Shown: piece after piece, positions 34,542-41,966 of the stretch
How positions within the stretch are numbered: position 1 is the stretch's first letter
Layout of the letters: the number at the start of each line of letters is the position of its first letter
The notes under the pieces: model-generated
Seen by the model: the letters and a program-made list of their open reading frames with translations, nothing else
Databases searched by the model: none
What the model was told of the DNA's origin: nothing
Position numbers and translations under genes: made by a program
NCBI RefSeq assembly: GCF_003992675.1
Contig: NZ_RZMZ01000016.1
Location: 124,001-188,000 of the forward strand
DNA length: 64,000 nt
Source of the DNA: Flagellimonas marinaquae
GTDB lineage: Bacteria; Bacteroidota; Bacteroidia; Flavobacteriales; Flavobacteriaceae
Reading direction: 5' to 3'

Positions 34542-35096
34542 TTATACCTTCATGATTTCCGCTTCTTTTGACGATAGGATGTTATCGACCTTATCACTAT
34601 AGGTGTCGGTCAATTCCTGTACGTCTACTTCGGCGTTCTTTAAAAGGTCCTCCGATATATCCAATGCCTTAAGTTCTTTATTGGCATCTTGTCGAGCGCT
34701 CCGGATACTTACCTTGGCATCTTCTGCTTCGGCCTTGGCCTGTTTTACCAATTGTTTTCTTCGTTCCTCTGTCAATGGGGGTACATTAATAATGACCATT
34801 TCTCCATTGTTCATGGGATTAAAGCCCAAATTGGCGTTCATGATGGCAGTTTCTATCTCTCCCAAAAGATTTTTTTCCCATGGCTGTACGGAAAGGGTTC
34901 GTGCATCAGGGGTATTGATGTTGGATACTTGAGAAAGTGGGGTCTGTGATCCATAGTAATTCACCATCACAGTAGAGAGCATCATGGGGCTTGCCTTGCC
35001 GGCCCTAATTTTGGTCAATGCTTTTTGCAGGTGGGCGATACTGGCCTCCATGCTTTCTTTGGTGCTGTCCAGAATAAATTTTACTTCTTCGTCCAT
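34542..35096 (-). CDS. frr: Ribosome recycling factor
   Basis: A 184-residue RRF (start chosen at the ATG giving MDEEVKFILDSTKESM; a TTG three codons upstream is possible). The three-helix bundle is seen, with KIRAGKASPMMLSTVMVNYYG and the C-terminal KDNILSSKEAEIMKV-like end. It splits 70S post-termination complexes with EF-G. It is the last gene of the pyrH-frr pair, 42 bases after pyrH, the usual bacterial order. Confidence 0.96.
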   Translation of the reverse strand: MDEEVKFILDSTKESMEASIAHLQKALTKIRAGKASPMMLSTVMVNYYGSQTPLSQVSNINTPDARTLSVQPWEKNLLGEIETAIMNANLGFNPMNNGEMVIINVPPLTEERRKQLVKQAKAEAEDAKVSIRSARQDANKELKALDISEDLLKNAEVDVQELTDTYSDKVDNILSSKEAEIMKV

Positions 35097-35138
35097 AACA
35101 TTCAAATTTATAAAATTGAAACCAAATTGTGCGTCAGT

Positions 35139-35846
35139 TTACACATTGACCACGGTTCCTATATTTTCTCCAGATACTATTTTGTTCAAGTTGCCTCGGG
35201 TATTCATATCGAAGACCACAATGGGCAGTTCGTTTTCTTGGCTTAGGGTAAACGCGGTGGTGTCCATGACCTTGAGTCCTTTGGAAAGCACTTCGTTAAA
35301 GGAAATGGAGTCAAACTTGGTGGCATCTTTGTGTTTCTCCGGGTCAGCAGTATAGATACCGTCAACACGGGTACCTTTTAAAATCACATCTGCCTTGATT
35401 TCGATGGCCCGCAATACGGCTGCGGAATCGGTGGTGAAGTAAGGATTTCCCGTTCCTCCTCCAAAAATAACGACCCGTCCTTTTTCCAAATGGCGGATGG
35501 CCCTACGCCTAATAAAGGGTTCTGCCACTTCATTGATTTTGATGGCCGATTGCAACCTGGTCTGAACGCCTTTGAGTTCGAGCGCGCTCTGCAAAGCCAA
35601 ACCATTGATGACGGTGGCCAACATGCCCATATGGTCGCCTTGGACCCGGTCCATTCCTTGGCTTGCCCCGGCGAGACCCCTAAAAATGTTGCCTCCTCCA
35701 ATTACGATGGCGACTTCAACACCTTTGTCGATTACCGATTTTATTTCTTCGGCATATTCGTCCAATCGCTTGGCATCTATACCGTATTGTTGTTCGCCCA
35801 TAAGGGCTTCCCCGCTCAATTTTAATAAAATTCTTTTGTAATGCAT
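35139..35846 (-). CDS. pyrH: UMP kinase
   Basis: A 235-residue hexameric UMP kinase of the amino-acid-kinase family. Motifs: [13 protein letters not shown] (phosphate loop), [10 protein letters not shown], and [19 protein letters not shown] (UMP contacts). Function is pyrimidine nucleotide synthesis. It stands between tsf and frr, as in most bacteria. Confidence 0.97.
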
Positions 35847-35927
35847 TTAGAGTTTCTTGAAGTCCGGACAAAAATAATCAAAATTATTTATGGGATAGGA
35901 AGAATTGCAGGTTTGATGCGGACATAA

Positions 35928-35956
35928 AAAAACCGCTTCTTTTTGGGAAGCGGTTC
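35928..35956 (-). terminator. Rho-independent terminator of rpsB-tsf
   Basis: AACCGCTTC pairs with GAAGCGGTT exactly, around a short loop. The A-run on the plus strand before it is the U-tract for the minus-strand transcript. It lies 24 bases after the tsf stop. Confidence 0.85.
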
Positions 35957-35978
35957 GTTTATTTATGCGTGTGGTGAA

Positions 35979-36803
35979 TTAACCCAATGCCACTCTTGTG
36001 AAACCAGTCACCTCCAAATTGGAGTCTACGGATTTTACATATTGGGCAACACTTTGCTTGCTGTCTTTAATGAAATCTTGGTTCACCAAAGTATTGTCTT
36101 TAAAGAAACGCTTCAATTTTCCTTGAGCGATTTTGTCCAACATTTCCTCTGGCTTACCTTCTTGACGCAATTGATCTTTTGCAATTTCAATCTCTTTGTC
36201 AATGATGGATTGGTCAACACCTTCTTCGTTCAAGGCGACCGGGTTCATTGCGGCAGCTTGCATGGCTACATCTTTGGCAGCTTCGGCAGCACCGTCAACA
36301 TTGGCGGACAAACCTACCAAGGTTGCGATTTTGTTCCCTGCGTGGATGTAAGATCCTACGAAAGGAGCGCTCAATCTTTCAAAGCTTCCGATTTCGATTT
36401 TCTCACCGATTACACCAGTTTGCTCGGTCAATTTATCAGCAACGGTCATTCCGTTGAAAGAAGCGGCTAGAAAGTCTTCTTTCTTGTCAAAACCTAGTGC
36501 CAAATCGGCCAAATCGGTTGCAAGTTTTACAAAGCTATCATTCTTGGCAACAAAGTCGGTTTCACAGTTTAGGGAGATAACCACTCCTTGTGTATTGTCA
36601 TCGTTTACCTTTGCGATGGCAGCACCTTCGGATGAATCTCTGTCAGCTCTTTTTGCTGCAACTTTTTGACCTTTCTTTCTTAGGATTTCGATGGCTTGGT
36701 CAAAATCTCCTTCAGCTTCAACCAAAGCTTTTTTACAATCCATCATTCCAGCTCCAGTAGCTTGTCTTAGTTTATTTACCTCTGCGGCAGTAATCTTTGC
36801 CAT
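35979..36803 (-). CDS. tsf: Elongation factor Ts
   Basis: A 274-residue guanine-nucleotide exchange factor for EF-Tu. The N-terminal module TAAEVNKLRQATGAGMMDCK and the core VVISLNCETDFVAKNDSFVK are clear, with the dimerisation region in the C-terminal half. It follows rpsB after 80 bases and ends at a strong terminator. Confidence 0.97.
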   Translation of the reverse strand: MAKITAAEVNKLRQATGAGMMDCKKALVEAEGDFDQAIEILRKKGQKVAAKRADRDSSEGAAIAKVNDDNTQGVVISLNCETDFVAKNDSFVKLATDLADLALGFDKKEDFLAASFNGMTVADKLTEQTGVIGEKIEIGSFERLSAPFVGSYIHAGNKIATLVGLSANVDGAAEAAKDVAMQAAAMNPVALNEEGVDQSIIDKEIEIAKDQLRQEGKPEEMLDKIAQGKLKRFFKDNTLVNQDFIKDSKQSVAQYVKSVDSNLEVTGFTRVALG

Positions 36804-36883
36804 TTTTTCTTTCTTTTTAAATTTTATGTAAAGTAAAACACTATCAAAGTGTTTTGGTTTAGGACAATGTTAAATCAACAGGT

Positions 36884-38002
36884 TTATTCAACTCCGCCTT
36901 TAACGCTGTCTTGCCATTCCTTTAGTTCGTCCCAGTTGCCATCGGCAGCCATTTTGGCCTGTTTTGGCCAAGATGTTGGGTCCAAGTGAGCTAATGTTGA
37001 ACTGGCTTCGGTCAAGATTTCCTTGATTTTTTCAGCGTCAGTGTCCGCTAGTGCAGCGTAAGTACTTAGTCCATTGGCAACCAATGCCTCTGCAGCTTTT
37101 GGCCCAATACCTTCAATTTTGGTAAGGTCTTCTGGCTTGGCTTCAGTCTCCTTTTTGGCAGGCTTTTCCTCAGCAGGCTTCTCTTCCTTGGTTGGTGCGG
37201 CCTCGGCTTTCTTAGCAGGCTTTTCTTCAGCAGCTTTTTCCTTTTTCTTTGGAGTTTCCTCTACGGCATCGGTAGTGTCTTCGTCCTTGTCCTTTCCACT
37301 TCCTTTGTCATTTTTGCGCTCTTCCAATCCTTCAGCAACGGCTTTGGTTACGTGCTCCAAGATAATTTCAATGGATTTACCAGCATCATCGTTGGATGGG
37401 ATGGCGAAATCCACATCGCGAGGGTCGGAGTTGGTATCTACCATGGCGAAAATTGGAATGTTCAATTTTTGCGCTTCTTTTACGGCGATGTGCTCACGCA
37501 TGGTGTCCACAATAAATAGGGCACCTGGCAAACGGGTCATATCTGCAATGGAACCCAAGTTTTTCTCCAACTTGGCACGCAAACGGTCTACTTGCAATCT
37601 TTCTTTCTTGGAAAGAGTGTTGAATGTTCCGTCCTTCTTCATGCGGTCGATAGCGGCCATTTTTTTGACAGCCTTACGAATGGTGACGAAGTTGGTCAAC
37701 ATACCACCGGGCCACCTTTCGGTGATGTACGGCATGTTCACTTTGGATACTTTGTCCGCTACAATGTCCTTTGCTTGTTTTTTTGTGGCTACAAAAAGGA
37801 TTTTTCTTCCTGAGGCGGCAATTTTCTTAAGGGCTTCGTTGGCCTCTTCAAGTTTTGCAGCTGTTTTGTAGAGATTGATAACGTGAATCCCGTTACGCTC
37901 CATGTAGATATAGGGAGCCATGTTGGGGTTCCACTTTCGTGTTAGGTGTCCAAAATGCACACCTGCTTCCAGTAAGTCTTTTACTTCAATTTTACTTGCC
38001 AT
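36884..38002 (-). CDS. rpsB: 30S ribosomal protein S2 with C-terminal helix-hairpin-helix extension
   Basis: A 372-residue protein, against about 230-250 for a normal S2. Residues 1-228 are complete S2 (EAGVHFGHLTRKWNPNMAPY; TRLPGALFIVDTMREHIAVK). Residues 229-290 are a low-complexity linker of Lys, Glu, Ala and Pro. Residues 291-334 form a helix-hairpin-helix domain (LTKIEGIGPKAAEALVANGL). The tail 340-372 (DPTSWPKQAKMAADGNWDEL) resembles the end of extended L21 proteins in Bacteroidota. The HhH could contact DNA or RNA. It is the first gene of rpsB-tsf. Start is ATG, with no sign of frameshift in the fusion. Confidence 0.95.
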   Translation of the reverse strand: MASKIEVKDLLEAGVHFGHLTRKWNPNMAPYIYMERNGIHVINLYKTAAKLEEANEALKKIAASGRKILFVATKKQAKDIVADKVSKVNMPYITERWPGGMLTNFVTIRKAVKKMAAIDRMKKDGTFNTLSKKERLQVDRLRAKLEKNLGSIADMTRLPGALFIVDTMREHIAVKEAQKLNIPIFAMVDTNSDPRDVDFAIPSNDDAGKSIEIILEHVTKAVAEGLEERKNDKGSGKDKDEDTTDAVEETPKKKEKAAEEKPAKKAEAAPTKEEKPAEEKPAKKETEAKPEDLTKIEGIGPKAAEALVANGLSTYAALADTDAEKIKEILTEASSTLAHLDPTSWPKQAKMAADGNWDELKEWQDSVKGGVE

Positions 38003-38153
38003 TTTTTGTACTTAGTTTACGTTCCGTTGTAAGTAGCAATGCGCTGGTGGTCACAACTTAATGTTCGCCCAGCCCATTTAGATGCTAAACTAGTTTCCAA
38101 AAAGTCGAAATGTATATTCCCTTTTGGAACAACGACAACTTGGTTAAAAATTT

Positions 38154-38182
38154 AACCCTGAAATATGTACGCTTTCAGGGTT
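38154..38182 (-). terminator. Terminator of the rplM-rpsI transcript
   Basis: AACCCTGAAA and TTTCAGGGTT form a perfect 10-bp stem with a 9-base loop, between rpsI and the rpsB promoter region, with an A/T-rich flank on the minus-strand exit side. Confidence 0.8.
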
Positions 38183-38225
38183 TTCAATGAACTTATATAT
38201 AGTTGGGTGCGATACCCAATGTATA

Positions 38226-38612
38226 TTAACGCTTGGAGAATTGGAATTTCTTACGGGCTTTCTTCTGACCGAATTTCTTTCTTTCCACCATTCTTGGGTC
38301 TCTTGTCAATAGACCTTCTGGCTTAAGAATGCCTCTGTTTTCCGCATCGATTTCGCACATAGCTCTTGACAAAGCCAAACGAACGGCTTCTGCCTGACCT
38401 GTGATACCACCTCCGTAAACATTTACTTTTACGTCATAGTTACCTTCAGTTTCTGTAAGGGCGAAAGGCTGTTTTACTTTGTACTGCAATGTGCCAGTAG
38501 TAAAGTAATCGTTAAGATCTCTCTTGTTTATGGTGATGTTTCCAGAACCTTCGGAAACATATACTCTGGCTACAGCAGTTTTTCTTCTACCTATCTTATG
38601 AACCACTTCCAT
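38226..38612 (-). CDS. rpsI: 30S ribosomal protein S9
   Basis: A 128-residue S9 with the conserved start VHKIGRRKTAVARVYV, the GQAEAVRLALSRAM segment, and the basic tail RKKFGQKKARKKFQFSKR that reaches the P-site tRNA. Its ATG overlaps the rplM stop by one base (TAATG), giving tight coupling with L13. Confidence 0.98.
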   Translation of the reverse strand: MEVVHKIGRRKTAVARVYVSEGSGNITINKRDLNDYFTTGTLQYKVKQPFALTETEGNYDVKVNVYGGGITGQAEAVRLALSRAMCEIDAENRGILKPEGLLTRDPRMVERKKFGQKKARKKFQFSKR

Positions 38613-39067
38613 TATTTGTAGTCGTTTAAGTTTATAGCTTTTGGTTTTTGCGCTTCTTGTCCGTGCTCGGCACCAGCATACACCTTTAAGTTTCTGAATA
38701 GATCCGCTCCAAGTTTGTTTTTTGGAAGCATTCCTTTTACAGAGTTTTCGATAATACGCTCAGGATGTTTGGCCAATAAATCTTTAGCGGAAGTGGAACG
38801 TTGTCCACCTGGGTAACCAGTATACCTTAGATATTCTTTCTCATCCCACTTGTTGCCGGTCATGTCGATTTTCTCAGCATTGATAACAATTACATTGTCT
38901 CCACAATCAACATGGGGCGTAAAGTTGGTTTTGTATTTCCCTCTAAGTATTTTGGCTACTTTAGACGCCAATCTTCCCAAGGTCTGTCCTTCAGCATCAA
39001 CCAATAACCATTGTTTGTCAACAGTAGATTTATTGGCGGAAATAGTTTTATAACTTAATGTATCCAC
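38612..39067 (-). CDS. rplM: 50S ribosomal protein L13
   Basis: A 151-residue L13 starting at GTG (complement of 39065-39067). It contains [20 protein letters not shown] and the [12 protein letters not shown]-type end. It is the first gene of rplM-rpsI. A clear promoter and a small hairpin lie upstream. Confidence 0.97.
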
Positions 39068-39113
39068 TTCTCGAATATTATTGATTTAATAACCTTTCCC
39101 GAATAACGGGCTG

Positions 39114-39121
39114 CAAATGTA
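39114..39121 (-). promoter_or_regulatory. Promoter of rplM-rpsI
   Basis: On the minus strand, TACATTTG (39121-39114) is preceded by TTTG at 39144-39141, with 19 bases between. This is the best match in the window to the Bacteroidota TTTG-N19-TAnnTTTG promoter. The CCCG(TTATT)CGGG hairpin at 39098-39110 would sit at the very 5' end of the mRNA. Confidence 0.75.
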
Positions 39122-39314
39122 CAATTATTAGATTGAATTACAAACGGTTGATTGGGAATATTTTTCCACTTTTTTCAATTTGGATAGGAGTGCAAAAATA
39201 CCCTCCAAATGATAACCGTATGAAACGTTAAAAATACCTTAAAATTCTGAGACACTGTAACTCTGCCTGATTTTGTGGGTCTTTATCGTATCAACCTAAT
39301 CAAAAAACGAACAA

Positions 39315-41966
39315 GTGAAGTATGCAGTCCTGGTTTTCGCGACCCTTCTTTCTATTTCCAAAAGTCAAGCACAGGATTCCACCGAGGTAGTCGTTAAAAA
39401 AACATATACCACCCACGATTTAGGTGAATATGCCGCACCCACTATCAATGGTATTTTGGAAGATGAGGCTTGGAACCTTGTGGATTGGGCCGGCGATTAC
39501 ATTGAATGGCAGCCCGATGAGAACACTCCGCCCAGTCATCAGACCAAGTTTAAAATACTATATGATAGCAAGAACCTATATATAGGTGTACGCTGTTATG
39601 ATGATGAGCCCGATAAAATCGTAAAAAGATTGTCTCGAAGGGATGGCTTCGATGGTGATTGGGTAGAGTTCAACATTGATAGCTATTTTGATAAGCGTAC
39701 CGCCTTTTCATTTACCATCACCGCTGCAGGGGTCAAGGGAGATGAGTTTATATCCAACAACGGCAATAATTGGGATTCGAGCTGGAATCCCATCTGGTAT
39801 GCCAAATCCCATGTGGACGATGAAGGCTGGACGGCCGAACTACGGATACCTTTAAGCCAGTTGAAATTTGGCAGTGCGGAGGAGCAGGTATGGGGGTTTC
39901 AGTCCACCCGACGTTTTTTTAGGGACGAGGAACGCTCACTTTGGCAGCGAAAACCCGTGGATCAGCCCGGTTGGGTCAGTGAATTTGGGGAACTCCATGG
40001 ATTAAAGAACATCGAACCCCAGAAACAACTCGAAATACAGCCCTATACGGTAACGAATACAGAGACTTATGAGGCAGAAGAAAACAATCCGTTCCGGGAT
40101 GGGAGCGAAAATAACCTGACGGTAGGACTCGATGCCAAGATCGGTATTACCAACGACCTTACTTTGGATTTGACGGTAAACCCAGATTTTGGACAGGTGG
40201 ATGCCGACCCATCGGCCATTGCGTTGGATGGTTTTCAGATTTTCTTTCAAGAACGGCGGCCATTTTTTGTGGAGAACAAGAACATTTTTGATTTCAGTGT
40301 TTCCCAATCACAAGCAGGAAATACTTTTGGTTCCGATAATATCTTCTATTCCCGAAGAATCGGTAGAAGTCCGCAAGGCTACCCCAATACCGCGGACGGC
40401 GAATTTGTAAATCAACCAGATAATACCCCGATTATTGGAGCGGCCAAGTTTAGCGGCAAGACCAAGGATGGATGGGCCATTGGCGTACTCGAGAGCGTAA
40501 CGGCCCAGCGAACTGCGACGATTTTGAATGGCAATGGCGATACCCGGGATGAAATGGTAGAGCCATTGACCAATTATTTTGTGGGAAGGCTTCAAAAGGA
40601 TTTCAATGAACGGAACTCCTATATTGGCGGTATTGTTACGGCAACAAATAGAGAAAGCTTACCAGAACAGCTCAATTTTTTACATGATGCGGCCTACACA
40701 GGCGGACTGGACTTTAAACACCAGTGGGCCAATAGGGATTGGTACGTGGGCGGCAACATCACTTTGAGCCATGTGCGCGGGAGCCAAGAAGCCATAACCA
40801 ATACTCAGGAATCCATCACCCATTTGTTCGGAAGGGTAGGGGCGGACCATGTAGCCGTGGATACCACCAGAACATCATTGACGGGTACCGGGGGCAATGT
40901 GCAAATAGGAAAGATTGGCAATGGCCATTGGCGTTTTGAATCGGGAGTCACCTGGCGTTCGCCCGAACTGGAACTCAATGATATCGGTTTTCAACGCCAA
41001 GCAGATGATGTACGCCACTATACTTGGATAGGTTATCAAACCCTAAAACCCGATAGTACCTTTAGGCGGGTGGGCATCAACTACAACCATTGGTCAGCAT
41101 GGGATTTTCAAGGGAATCATAATTATATGCAGTTTAATACCAACAGCTGGCAAAACTGGAAGGGCAACTGGAATACCAACATAGGTTTCAATTTTGCACC
41201 GATTGAATACTCCAACTTTGCTTTGCGGGGCGGTCCACGGCTTAGGCAATCCCCTTGGATGAGTTTTTGGAACAGTATCAACACCGATAACCGGAAAAAA
41301 ATGCGTTTTTCCTTTTTTCACAATGGAAGAAAGGCTCTGGATAATTCCATAAAGACCTATTATATTGAAGGAGGCTTTGTGTACCAACCGATAAATGCCC
41401 TACGGATTTCCGCATTTCCAAGTCTGCAAATCAATAACGATCAGTTGCAGTTCATCAATAATTTTGATGATGTCAATGGTTCGCCGCGCTATCTGAATGG
41501 GGAAATCGACCAACGTACTTTGAGCATGTCCATTCGGTTGAATTATACCATCAATCCCAACTTGACCATTCAATATTGGGGACAACCATTTATTTCCCGT
41601 GGACGCTATTCCAATTTTAAGCATATCACGGACCCGGTTGCCAAGACCTTTGCGGATAGATTTGTGCAATACACGTCTGAACAGACCGAGCTTTCCGAAG
41701 GTACCTACACCATTGATGAAGATTTGGATGGTATAACCGATTTTAGTTTTGACAATCCAGATTTTTCCTTTGTGCAGTTCCGTTCCAACTTGGTCATCCG
41801 ATGGGAGTACATTCCAGGGTCGGAAATATTCTTGGTATGGTCGCAAGATGTGTCAAGGAATGGTGACCCGACGAATGGACTGCTTTCCAGTTTGGGGGAC
41901 AACATTTTTGGACAAAAACCACAAAACATCTTTTTGTTGAAGGCTACGTATCGGTTTGTGCTTTAA
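39315..41966 (+). CDS. DUF5916 / carbohydrate-binding-like outer-membrane protein
   Basis: An 883-residue exported protein with a signal peptide (VLVFATLLSISKSQAQ, about residues 5-20), starting at GTG. The N-terminal part (about 40-220) is a CBM9-like module: APTINGILEDEAWNLVDWAG, SKNLYIGVRCYDDEPDKIVK and FDGDWVEFNIDSYFDKRTAF. The rest is long and beta-rich, with repeated aromatic strands (WNTNIGFNFAPIEYSNFALR, IRLNYTINPNLTIQYWGQPF) expected of an outer-membrane barrel, ending in LKATYRFVL. No enzyme motif is seen. Members are widespread in marine Bacteroidota and of unknown role. It stands alone, flanked by a repeat element. Confidence 0.87.
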   Translation: MKYAVLVFATLLSISKSQAQDSTEVVVKKTYTTHDLGEYAAPTINGILEDEAWNLVDWAGDYIEWQPDENTPPSHQTKFKILYDSKNLYIGVRCYDDEPDKIVKRLSRRDGFDGDWVEFNIDSYFDKRTAFSFTITAAGVKGDEFISNNGNNWDSSWNPIWYAKSHVDDEGWTAELRIPLSQLKFGSAEEQVWGFQSTRRFFRDEERSLWQRKPVDQPGWVSEFGELHGLKNIEPQKQLEIQPYTVTNTETYEAEENNPFRDGSENNLTVGLDAKIGITNDLTLDLTVNPDFGQVDADPSAIALDGFQIFFQERRPFFVENKNIFDFSVSQSQAGNTFGSDNIFYSRRIGRSPQGYPNTADGEFVNQPDNTPIIGAAKFSGKTKDGWAIGVLESVTAQRTATILNGNGDTRDEMVEPLTNYFVGRLQKDFNERNSYIGGIVTATNRESLPEQLNFLHDAAYTGGLDFKHQWANRDWYVGGNITLSHVRGSQEAITNTQESITHLFGRVGADHVAVDTTRTSLTGTGGNVQIGKIGNGHWRFESGVTWRSPELELNDIGFQRQADDVRHYTWIGYQTLKPDSTFRRVGINYNHWSAWDFQGNHNYMQFNTNSWQNWKGNWNTNIGFNFAPIEYSNFALRGGPRLRQSPWMSFWNSINTDNRKKMRFSFFHNGRKALDNSIKTYYIEGGFVYQPINALRISAFPSLQINNDQLQFINNFDDVNGSPRYLNGEIDQRTLSMSIRLNYTINPNLTIQYWGQPFISRGRYSNFKHITDPVAKTFADRFVQYTSEQTELSEGTYTIDEDLDGITDFSFDNPDFSFVQFRSNLVIRWEYIPGSEIFLVWSQDVSRNGDPTNGLLSSLGDNIFGQKPQNIFLLKATYRFVL

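Follow-up and report, generated by a model that had tools for sequence, protein, structure and literature searches.

Ribosomal proteins are treated as nearly fixed. Long variants of two of them are modelled in NCBIfam, namely a long L21 (NF008915/NF008916, PRK12278) and a long S2 (NF008966, PRK12311), and we take both to be alphaproteobacterial. The closest solved S2 and L21 chains come from the 9oy8 and 7jil series, presumably of Flavobacterium johnsoniae. With 254 and 147 aa they are too short to hold a further domain and these structures therefore could not show the tail described below. A domain at the end of a flexible segment has also been described outside the ribosome: according to excerpts of PMC12079452, the C-terminal domain of protein-O follows a long flexible loop, is untraced in the structure and is common to NADH-quinone oxidoreductase subunit E and other proteins, its function being obscure. 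An excerpt of PMC6614801 describes AR2 of NusA as an acidic repeat with a dual helix-hairpin-helix (HhH) motif that binds SuhB and the RNA polymerase alphaCTD. Our literature search with narrow terms returned no account of HhH domain exchange among ribosomal proteins and nothing on point for the 'sunset domain' that names another S2 variant.

The window analysed here is a stretch of 64,000 nucleotides from Flagellimonas marinaquae (contig NZ_RZMZ01000016.1). It holds an rpsB frame with the following parts and neighbours:

36884..38002, minus strand: rpsB, uS2 with HhH tail, 372 aa plus stop
37319..38002, minus strand: uS2 core, residues 1-228, Pfam Ribosomal_S2, dN/dS 0.03-0.04
37130..37318, minus strand: Lys/Glu/Ala/Pro-rich linker, residues 229-291, predicted disordered, pLDDT ~30, pN 0.39, length variable
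36887..37129, minus strand: HhH tail domain, residues 292-372, five predicted helices, HHH_5, model pLDDT 89.8
35979..36803, minus strand: tsf (EF-Ts), downstream neighbour of rpsB, named by eye without family search
38226..38612, minus strand: rpsI (uS9), upstream neighbour of rpsB, named by eye without family search
38612..39067, minus strand: rplM (uL13), upstream neighbour of rpsB, named by eye without family search

The frame starts with ATG and contains zero internal stops. S2 gave one match genome-wide, i.e. it is a single copy, and it adjoins tsf (the latter assigned by eye). The preliminary description had read the frame as S2 with a charged linker and an HhH tail, and both domains were confirmed by Pfam: residues 10-225 matched Ribosomal_S2 (PF00318; 300.5 bits, cut-off 26.1, E 6.7e-90) and residues 291-329 matched HHH_5 (PF14520; 34.6 bits, cut-off 27, E 2.6e-8), with the charged linker covering residues 229-291. 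The NCBIfam model TIGR01011 was also matched above its cut-off (299.7 against 76.3 bits). The linker comprises 63 residues with a net charge of -1, and the tail 81 residues (292-372) with a net charge of -7 and the C-terminal end WPKQAKMAADGNWDELKEWQDSVKGGVE. When the last 88 residues were modelled alone, structure prediction gave five helices with a mean pLDDT of 89.8. In the full-length AlphaFold2 model (47 sequences) the linker is predicted to be disordered (pLDDT ~30) and the tail to be folded (~80). The S2 core itself was poorly predicted there, with block means of 35-83, which we think is due to the shallow alignment. A search of positions 35000-40000 of the window against Rfam gave zero matches.

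A frameshift or mis-assembly joining two separate genes was ruled out. S2 and tail share one open frame in 22 of the 23 other genomes of the genus (in three of these 22 the match consists of two pieces within the one frame), and in the 23rd, which is 75% complete, no more than 40 residues of the tail were seen, at the end of a contig. Scanning named genomes with the tail profile yielded 562 relatives, and in all 80 loci taken the S2 frame includes the tail (347-425 aa), though these loci were picked with the tail as query and so show the association of tail and S2 and not the frequency of the fusion. They include Allomuricauda/Flagellimonas, Maribacter, Zobellia, Eudoraea and Robiginitalea as well as Kriegella, Pricia, Euzebyella and Zeaxanthinibacter. 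The frameshift that the preliminary description had named as refuting its reading was not found. Across the 81 sequences (80 loci and the window) the tail length is constant at 81 residues, and that of the linker varies between 39 and 117. Compared with the window, the 80 loci gave a pooled dN/dS of 0.040 in the S2 core (0.03-0.04) and of 0.063 in the tail. In the linker, where synonymous sites are saturated, pN was 0.39. Purifying selection acts on the tail and the linker drifts.

We then compared tails of nine host types, 120 in all and 112 of them distinct, and found 18 positions that are at least 90% conserved. They fall on the hairpin (D1, L2, E6, G7, G9, P10 and K11), on L27 and L39, and on the ending (W54, Q57, A58, A61, G64, W66, L69, Q73 and G79). 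They include the polar E6, K11, Q57 and Q73. The hairpin GIGPK is intact and its K is nearly invariant. Among distinct tails the mean net charge was -4.5 for S2 of the Flavobacteriaceae (n=40, range -10 to +1; the motif-based reading missed 2 of 42 S2 loci, L015 and L021), -3.0 for L21 (n=31) and -1.1 for the copies on membrane proteins (n=35). The tails of bL27 range from -1 to -6 (n=7) and those of bL17 from -2 to -9 (n=4), those of bS1 carry -5 and -7, that of bL20 -4 and that of uL16 -14. As the only comparison of this kind, the HhH end of UvrC in the F. marinaquae genome carries +5 in 59 residues. The ribosomal tails are therefore mostly acidic, with exceptions: two of the 40 Flavobacteriaceae S2 tails have a net charge of 0 or +1, and in two genomes of another family, G606 and G633, the S2 tails carry +3 and -1 and the L21 tails +2 and +2.

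Foldseek with the tail model returned nothing significant, the best match being NusA of Planctomyces (E 0.92). On realignment the fold matched the polymerase theta helicase (Z 8.9), Rad51/RadA (7.7) and NusA repeats (7.1, 6.7 and 6.6), although Z values of up to 8.9 lie in the range that common helical folds reach by chance. For NusA entry 1wcn the Z of 7.1 corresponds to an rmsd of 3.0 over 67 of 70 residues, and for 6ib8_C (AR2) the Z of 6.7 to an rmsd of 2.3 over 61 of 65 residues. All three NusA entries lie at 6.6-7.1 and other HhH proteins score alike or higher. At the sequence level, AR2 of E. coli NusA matched the tail profile with 32% identity in 38 columns (E 4.5e-5 when only this pair is considered), UvrC with 32% over 37 columns (E 4.9e-4) and DNA polymerase beta with E 0.0055. 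Two other proteins of the F. marinaquae genome gave near-nil matches, NusA with E 0.3 and a DprA-like protein with E 0.058. The likeness to NusA is thus not specific, because UvrC and DNA polymerase beta match too and the Z values lie in the chance range. By these models the tail is an HhH-fold domain, a likeness that leaves protein and nucleic acid both as candidate ligands.

The domain is found on at least seven ribosomal proteins: uS2, bL21, bS1, bL27, bL17, bL20 and uL16. It has been exchanged between hosts, and the spread is wider than in the preliminary description, which had claimed a move between S2 and L21. Five of the seven (bL17, bL20, bL21, bL27 and uL16) belong to the 50S subunit. 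In the sampled genomes bL27 is the host in seven (G220, G247, G338, G573, G703, G724 and G820), bL17 in four (G188, G369, G758 and G780), bS1 in G247 and G338, bL20 in G576 only and a divergent uL16 in G410 only. Outside the Flavobacteriaceae tailed bL21 was found in G228, G362, G728, G606, G633 and G819. Non-ribosomal hosts in Bacteroidota are ActC and ActD of alternative complex III and membrane-anchored proteins with a TM segment, most of them with a stretch that is coiled-coil-like by eye. A phasin-like protein and, by eye, a CBM48-like protein also carry it. In G606 and G633 the domain occurs simultaneously on uS2, bL21, a membrane protein, ActC and ActD. This tally covers frames with an assigned host, so that tailed frames without an assignment (e.g. 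G025, G032, G428, G448, G547, G764 and G812) are excluded, and the motif-based reading also missed some tails or loci with odd motifs. Ten representatives were checked against Pfam, one each, among them L21 and the membrane protein L003 of F. marinaquae (see below). HHH_5 was confirmed for uS2 (G606), bS1, bL27, bL17, bL20, uL16, NrfD/ActC and ActD, where the tails of bL20 (20.0 bits) and uL16 (25.2 bits) fall below the cut-off of 27 and match our tail profiles with E 6e-32 (profile A2) and E 3e-15 (profile A1), respectively. The domain was present in 33 of 296 genomes of the phylum sample (profile A1, E 1e-5) and in 34 of 395 genomes of the class sample (profile A2, E 1e-10), and therefore its role is dispensable in most lineages.

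Several of these hosts were encountered individually. F. marinaquae itself has a protein of 187 aa (L003:1231-1791, C7:87269) with the same HhH tail and, by eye, a TM segment and a coiled coil, which matches zero Pfam families. The same genome has an NrfD/ActC-like membrane subunit whose C-terminus is a divergent HhH (L004, C16:210893). The tailed ActC and ActD of G606 and G633 correspond to loci L354 and L355. Phasin-like proteins with an HhH-type tail were seen in two genera (L107 and L108), L107 matching the NCBIfam model PhasinPhaH with E 5e-13, below its cut-off. A glycogen-binding protein, CBM48-like by eye, has the HhH tail in G358 and G758 (L241 and L335).

To place the S2 tail we sampled 149 genomes, one per genus, of a family that we take to be Flavobacteriaceae in view of the named loci. 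S2 was found in 145 of these genera and 21 of the 145 carry the tail on S2, so that it was not found in the remaining 124 genera with a detected S2. Outside the family but within the order, 15 genomes were examined, and none had an S2 match that reached the end of the tail; in two of them the tail matched an unread frame other than S2. The S2-core tree (56 rows) places all tailed S2 of the Flavobacteriaceae in one starred clade of marine flavobacteria, in which a tail-less group of three genera is nested. The tail tree (100 rows, 82 columns) was computed from 99 of the 127 collected tails and the window tail, leaving out 16 of the 20 same-genus S2 tails and 12 further tails that were near-duplicates or divergent. 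Here the S2 tails split into groups of 21 and 4, each beside bL21 tails. The AU test did not reject a single clade of family S2 tails (p 0.116), and this result together with the single clade in the S2-core tree speaks against two origins of the S2 tail within the Flavobacteriaceae. The preliminary description had suggested mapping the gain of the tail over the S2 and L21 of this family. For S2 the map is most simply explained by about one gain and one loss, as judged from the trees, and two origins were not supported. The S2 fusion in G606 and G633, which belong to another family (uS2 of G606 is confirmed by Pfam), would most simply be a second, separate gain, its place in the core tree being unsure as long branches meet there. 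Four further S2 loci (L301-L304) have long low-complexity charged tails and no HhH domain and thus resemble the linker minus the domain.

For L21 the earlier statement that long proteins with the same tail type occur in Bacteroidota proved right: L21 was detected in 146 family genera, and in 66 of them the tail match shares its open frame, an assignment made by coordinates; 19 of the 66 were read as sequence. Eight of these 66 genera have the S2 tail too. In total 97 family L21 were read, picked to cover all but two of those without the HhH tail. These two are fragments (G086 and G121); like 47 HhH-tailed L21, they were left unread. Of the 97, 62 have a Rho_N-type end, 19 the HhH tail type, 3 another HhH type, 9 a charged stretch only, and 4 little or nothing (one of them at a contig end). 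The bL21 of F. marinaquae itself belongs to the first group, with a Rho_N domain (E 3.4e-10) behind a Lys/Ala/Pro-rich linker (L055:150-683, C17:31799). In three family genera (L114, L283 and L284) bL21 has a quite different HhH tail with a W..QAK ending that is distant in the tail tree; these divergent tails were perhaps acquired from elsewhere. Among family genera the HhH tails of S2 and L21 are not associated (8/21 against 58/121, p 0.48). A Rho_N-type L21 was observed in 13 of 13 genera with only the S2 tail and in 49 of the 65 other read genera without the L21 HhH tail (p 0.059). With this p value and the lack of an association between the S2 and L21 tails, we rejected the idea that the S2 tail compensates for a lost L21 tail. 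We found no sign of gene conversion between the S2 and L21 tails in the eight genomes with both, where the within-genome identity of 58-76% is not consistently above the identity between genomes.

We tentatively interpret the S2 tail as a mobile, self-contained HhH docking domain on a long tether, with a protein as the favoured partner. In Bacteroidota such a domain would have been added repeatedly, via a long disordered linker, to the C-termini of ribosomal and some membrane proteins. On S2 it may work like a ball on a string, the tether of 63 residues allowing the domain to sweep the space around the ribosome until it binds a partner, and the ribosome would thereby be brought to that partner. 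The fusion, the selection on it and the exchange of hosts are observations, the flexible tether and the fold are predictions, and docking, a protein as partner and a partner common to the hosts are inferences. The host changes while the conserved residues of the domain stay, and for this reason the selected trait is probably the presence of the domain on the ribosome and not at a particular ribosomal site. We think that a protein is the most likely partner, bound much as NusA binds proteins through its acidic repeats: acidity prevails among the ribosomal tails, and in NusA such acidic HhH repeats are an established means of docking. The charge exceptions in S2 and L21 of G606 and G633 slightly weaken the docking interpretation and slightly strengthen the view that the tail touches RNA. 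According to this view, the hairpin would hold on to mRNA or rRNA close to the mRNA exit and so aid initiation where Shine-Dalgarno pairing is little used. It can point to the intact hairpin with its K, to the nucleic-acid HhH proteins among the matches (UvrC, polymerase beta with E 0.0055 and Rad51/RadA), to uS2 and bS1 as hosts, both of which lie on the mRNA platform, and to the tails that are neutral or slightly basic. The other five ribosomal hosts are 50S proteins, however, and further hosts are membrane proteins. Most tails are acidic, the family S2 tails averaging -4.5, whereas the UvrC end in the same genome carries +5. According to an excerpt of PMC9976891, Bacteroidia overall fail to recognise Shine-Dalgarno sequences, but the S2 tail is seen in few genera and not found in 124 of 145, and an initiation role is therefore disfavoured. 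The preliminary description had proposed just such an RNA-contacting initiation tail, which our results neither demonstrate nor refute; we regard it as unlikely.

In an alternative based on pairing between like domains, the ribosomal HhH tail would pair with the HhH of the membrane-anchored protein and in this way hold ribosomes at the membrane. A membrane-type HhH frame was found in 21 of 21 genera with the S2 tail and in 26 of the 128 others (Fisher p 6e-13), where membrane identity is assumed for the 47 short frames of this set and 16 were read as sequence, 11 of them within the 21 genera. A frame entered the set if it matched the tail, measured 99-237 aa and was not S2 or L21; G185 (90 aa, at a contig start) was excluded. 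The five simultaneous hosts in G606 and G633 also agree with pairing. With about one gain of the S2 tail in the family, however, the tree yields no more than 2 independent pairs (median p 0.5 in a sign test), so the co-occurrence is a lead that is not significant once kinship is counted. The corresponding link for L21 is weak (17/58 against 9/70, p 0.027, kinship uncorrected), and 41 of the 58 genera tailed on L21 but not on S2 are without a membrane-type frame. We consider pairing improbable, and give the same small chance to the broader idea that a single partner serves all the tails, be they on ribosomes, on ActC/ActD or on the membrane-anchored protein, or that these tails bind one another. 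Ribosomes and energy complexes would then be collected at the membrane by a modular docking system, in which the ribosome stays while each lineage switches the ribosomal protein that bears the tag. Conservation of particular polar residues across hosts goes beyond what acidity needs, and this counts against a role confined to assembly or solubility, where the charged linker and mostly acidic domain would chaperone S2 before it enters the ribosome and do nothing later. An acidic appendage could indeed shield basic, abundant ribosomal proteins, and host exchange would then be easy, but ActC and ActD are non-ribosomal and many L21 have Rho_N or only a charged stretch in its place, and we hold this explanation to be very unlikely. 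Equally hard to credit is a tie between ribosome and polymerase, in which the tail acts like NusA AR2 and binds the RNA polymerase alphaCTD or another transcription factor. Its basis is the likeness in fold and sequence to AR2, for which binding of alphaCTD is described in an excerpt of PMC6614801. This coupling leaves the tails on ActC/ActD and on membrane proteins unexplained, and the likeness extends to UvrC. Furthermore the NusA of F. marinaquae ends in an acidic stretch that is AR-like by eye, although it fails to match the profile (E 0.3), so no replacement is evident, and we dropped the idea that the S2 tail replaces acidic repeats absent from that NusA.

The addition of one domain to at least seven ribosomal proteins of both subunits and to unrelated proteins amounts to a natural experiment. 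The exchange of hosts suggests that the address is the whole ribosome and not one site, and the roving HhH domain resembles a docking tag that can be used again on new hosts, more than a component of translation initiation. Identification of the partner would reveal how tailed bacteria place or couple their ribosomes.

The described systems resemble the locus in different ways. The acidic repeats AR1/AR2 of NusA have an acidic dual-HhH fold that is used in docking, as we propose for the tail, but they lie within a transcription factor, the sequence likeness covers only 38 columns, and AR2 of E. coli is more acidic (-11 in 69 residues). The non-ribosomal proteins are related at the C-terminus: the tail alone matched NuoE (PRK12373) and PhaH with E 0.0038 and 0.0014, and profile A2 matched protein-O of the Dinoroseobacter shibae RC-LH1 (8yy9_O) with E 1.8e-8 and the 41 kd subunit of complex I (9wqv_a) with E 2.7e-5. 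In all four the W..QA ending is only partly like the WPxQAxxAxxGxWxEL of the tail. The Rho_N tail of bL21, for which PRK14537 (L20/unknown domain fusion) gives E 0.00098 in F. marinaquae, below the cut-off, is likewise a small domain on a charged linker but belongs to a different family. The S2 variants are closer in host: residues 4-351 of the window S2 align on 5-328 of the 334 positions of NF008966, and the tail alone falls weakly on 270-329 (E 0.012). A match of the tail to this model at E 6e-5 was discarded since the query included part of the linker. With 275.3 bits against a cut-off of 526 the window S2 is not a member of the NF008966 equivalog family, and neither is it one of NF051451 (S2 sunset domain variant), where it scored 251.7 bits against 710 and the match ended at model position 286 of 382. 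The models NF008915/NF008916 have an HhH-type C-terminus too, and the 81-residue tail matches their C-terminal ends with E 6e-6 and 1.5e-4, but their host is L21 and the cut-offs of 281 and 193 bits are far from reached. Long S2 and long L21 were thus already known from these NCBIfam models, and the exchange of hosts is what we add.
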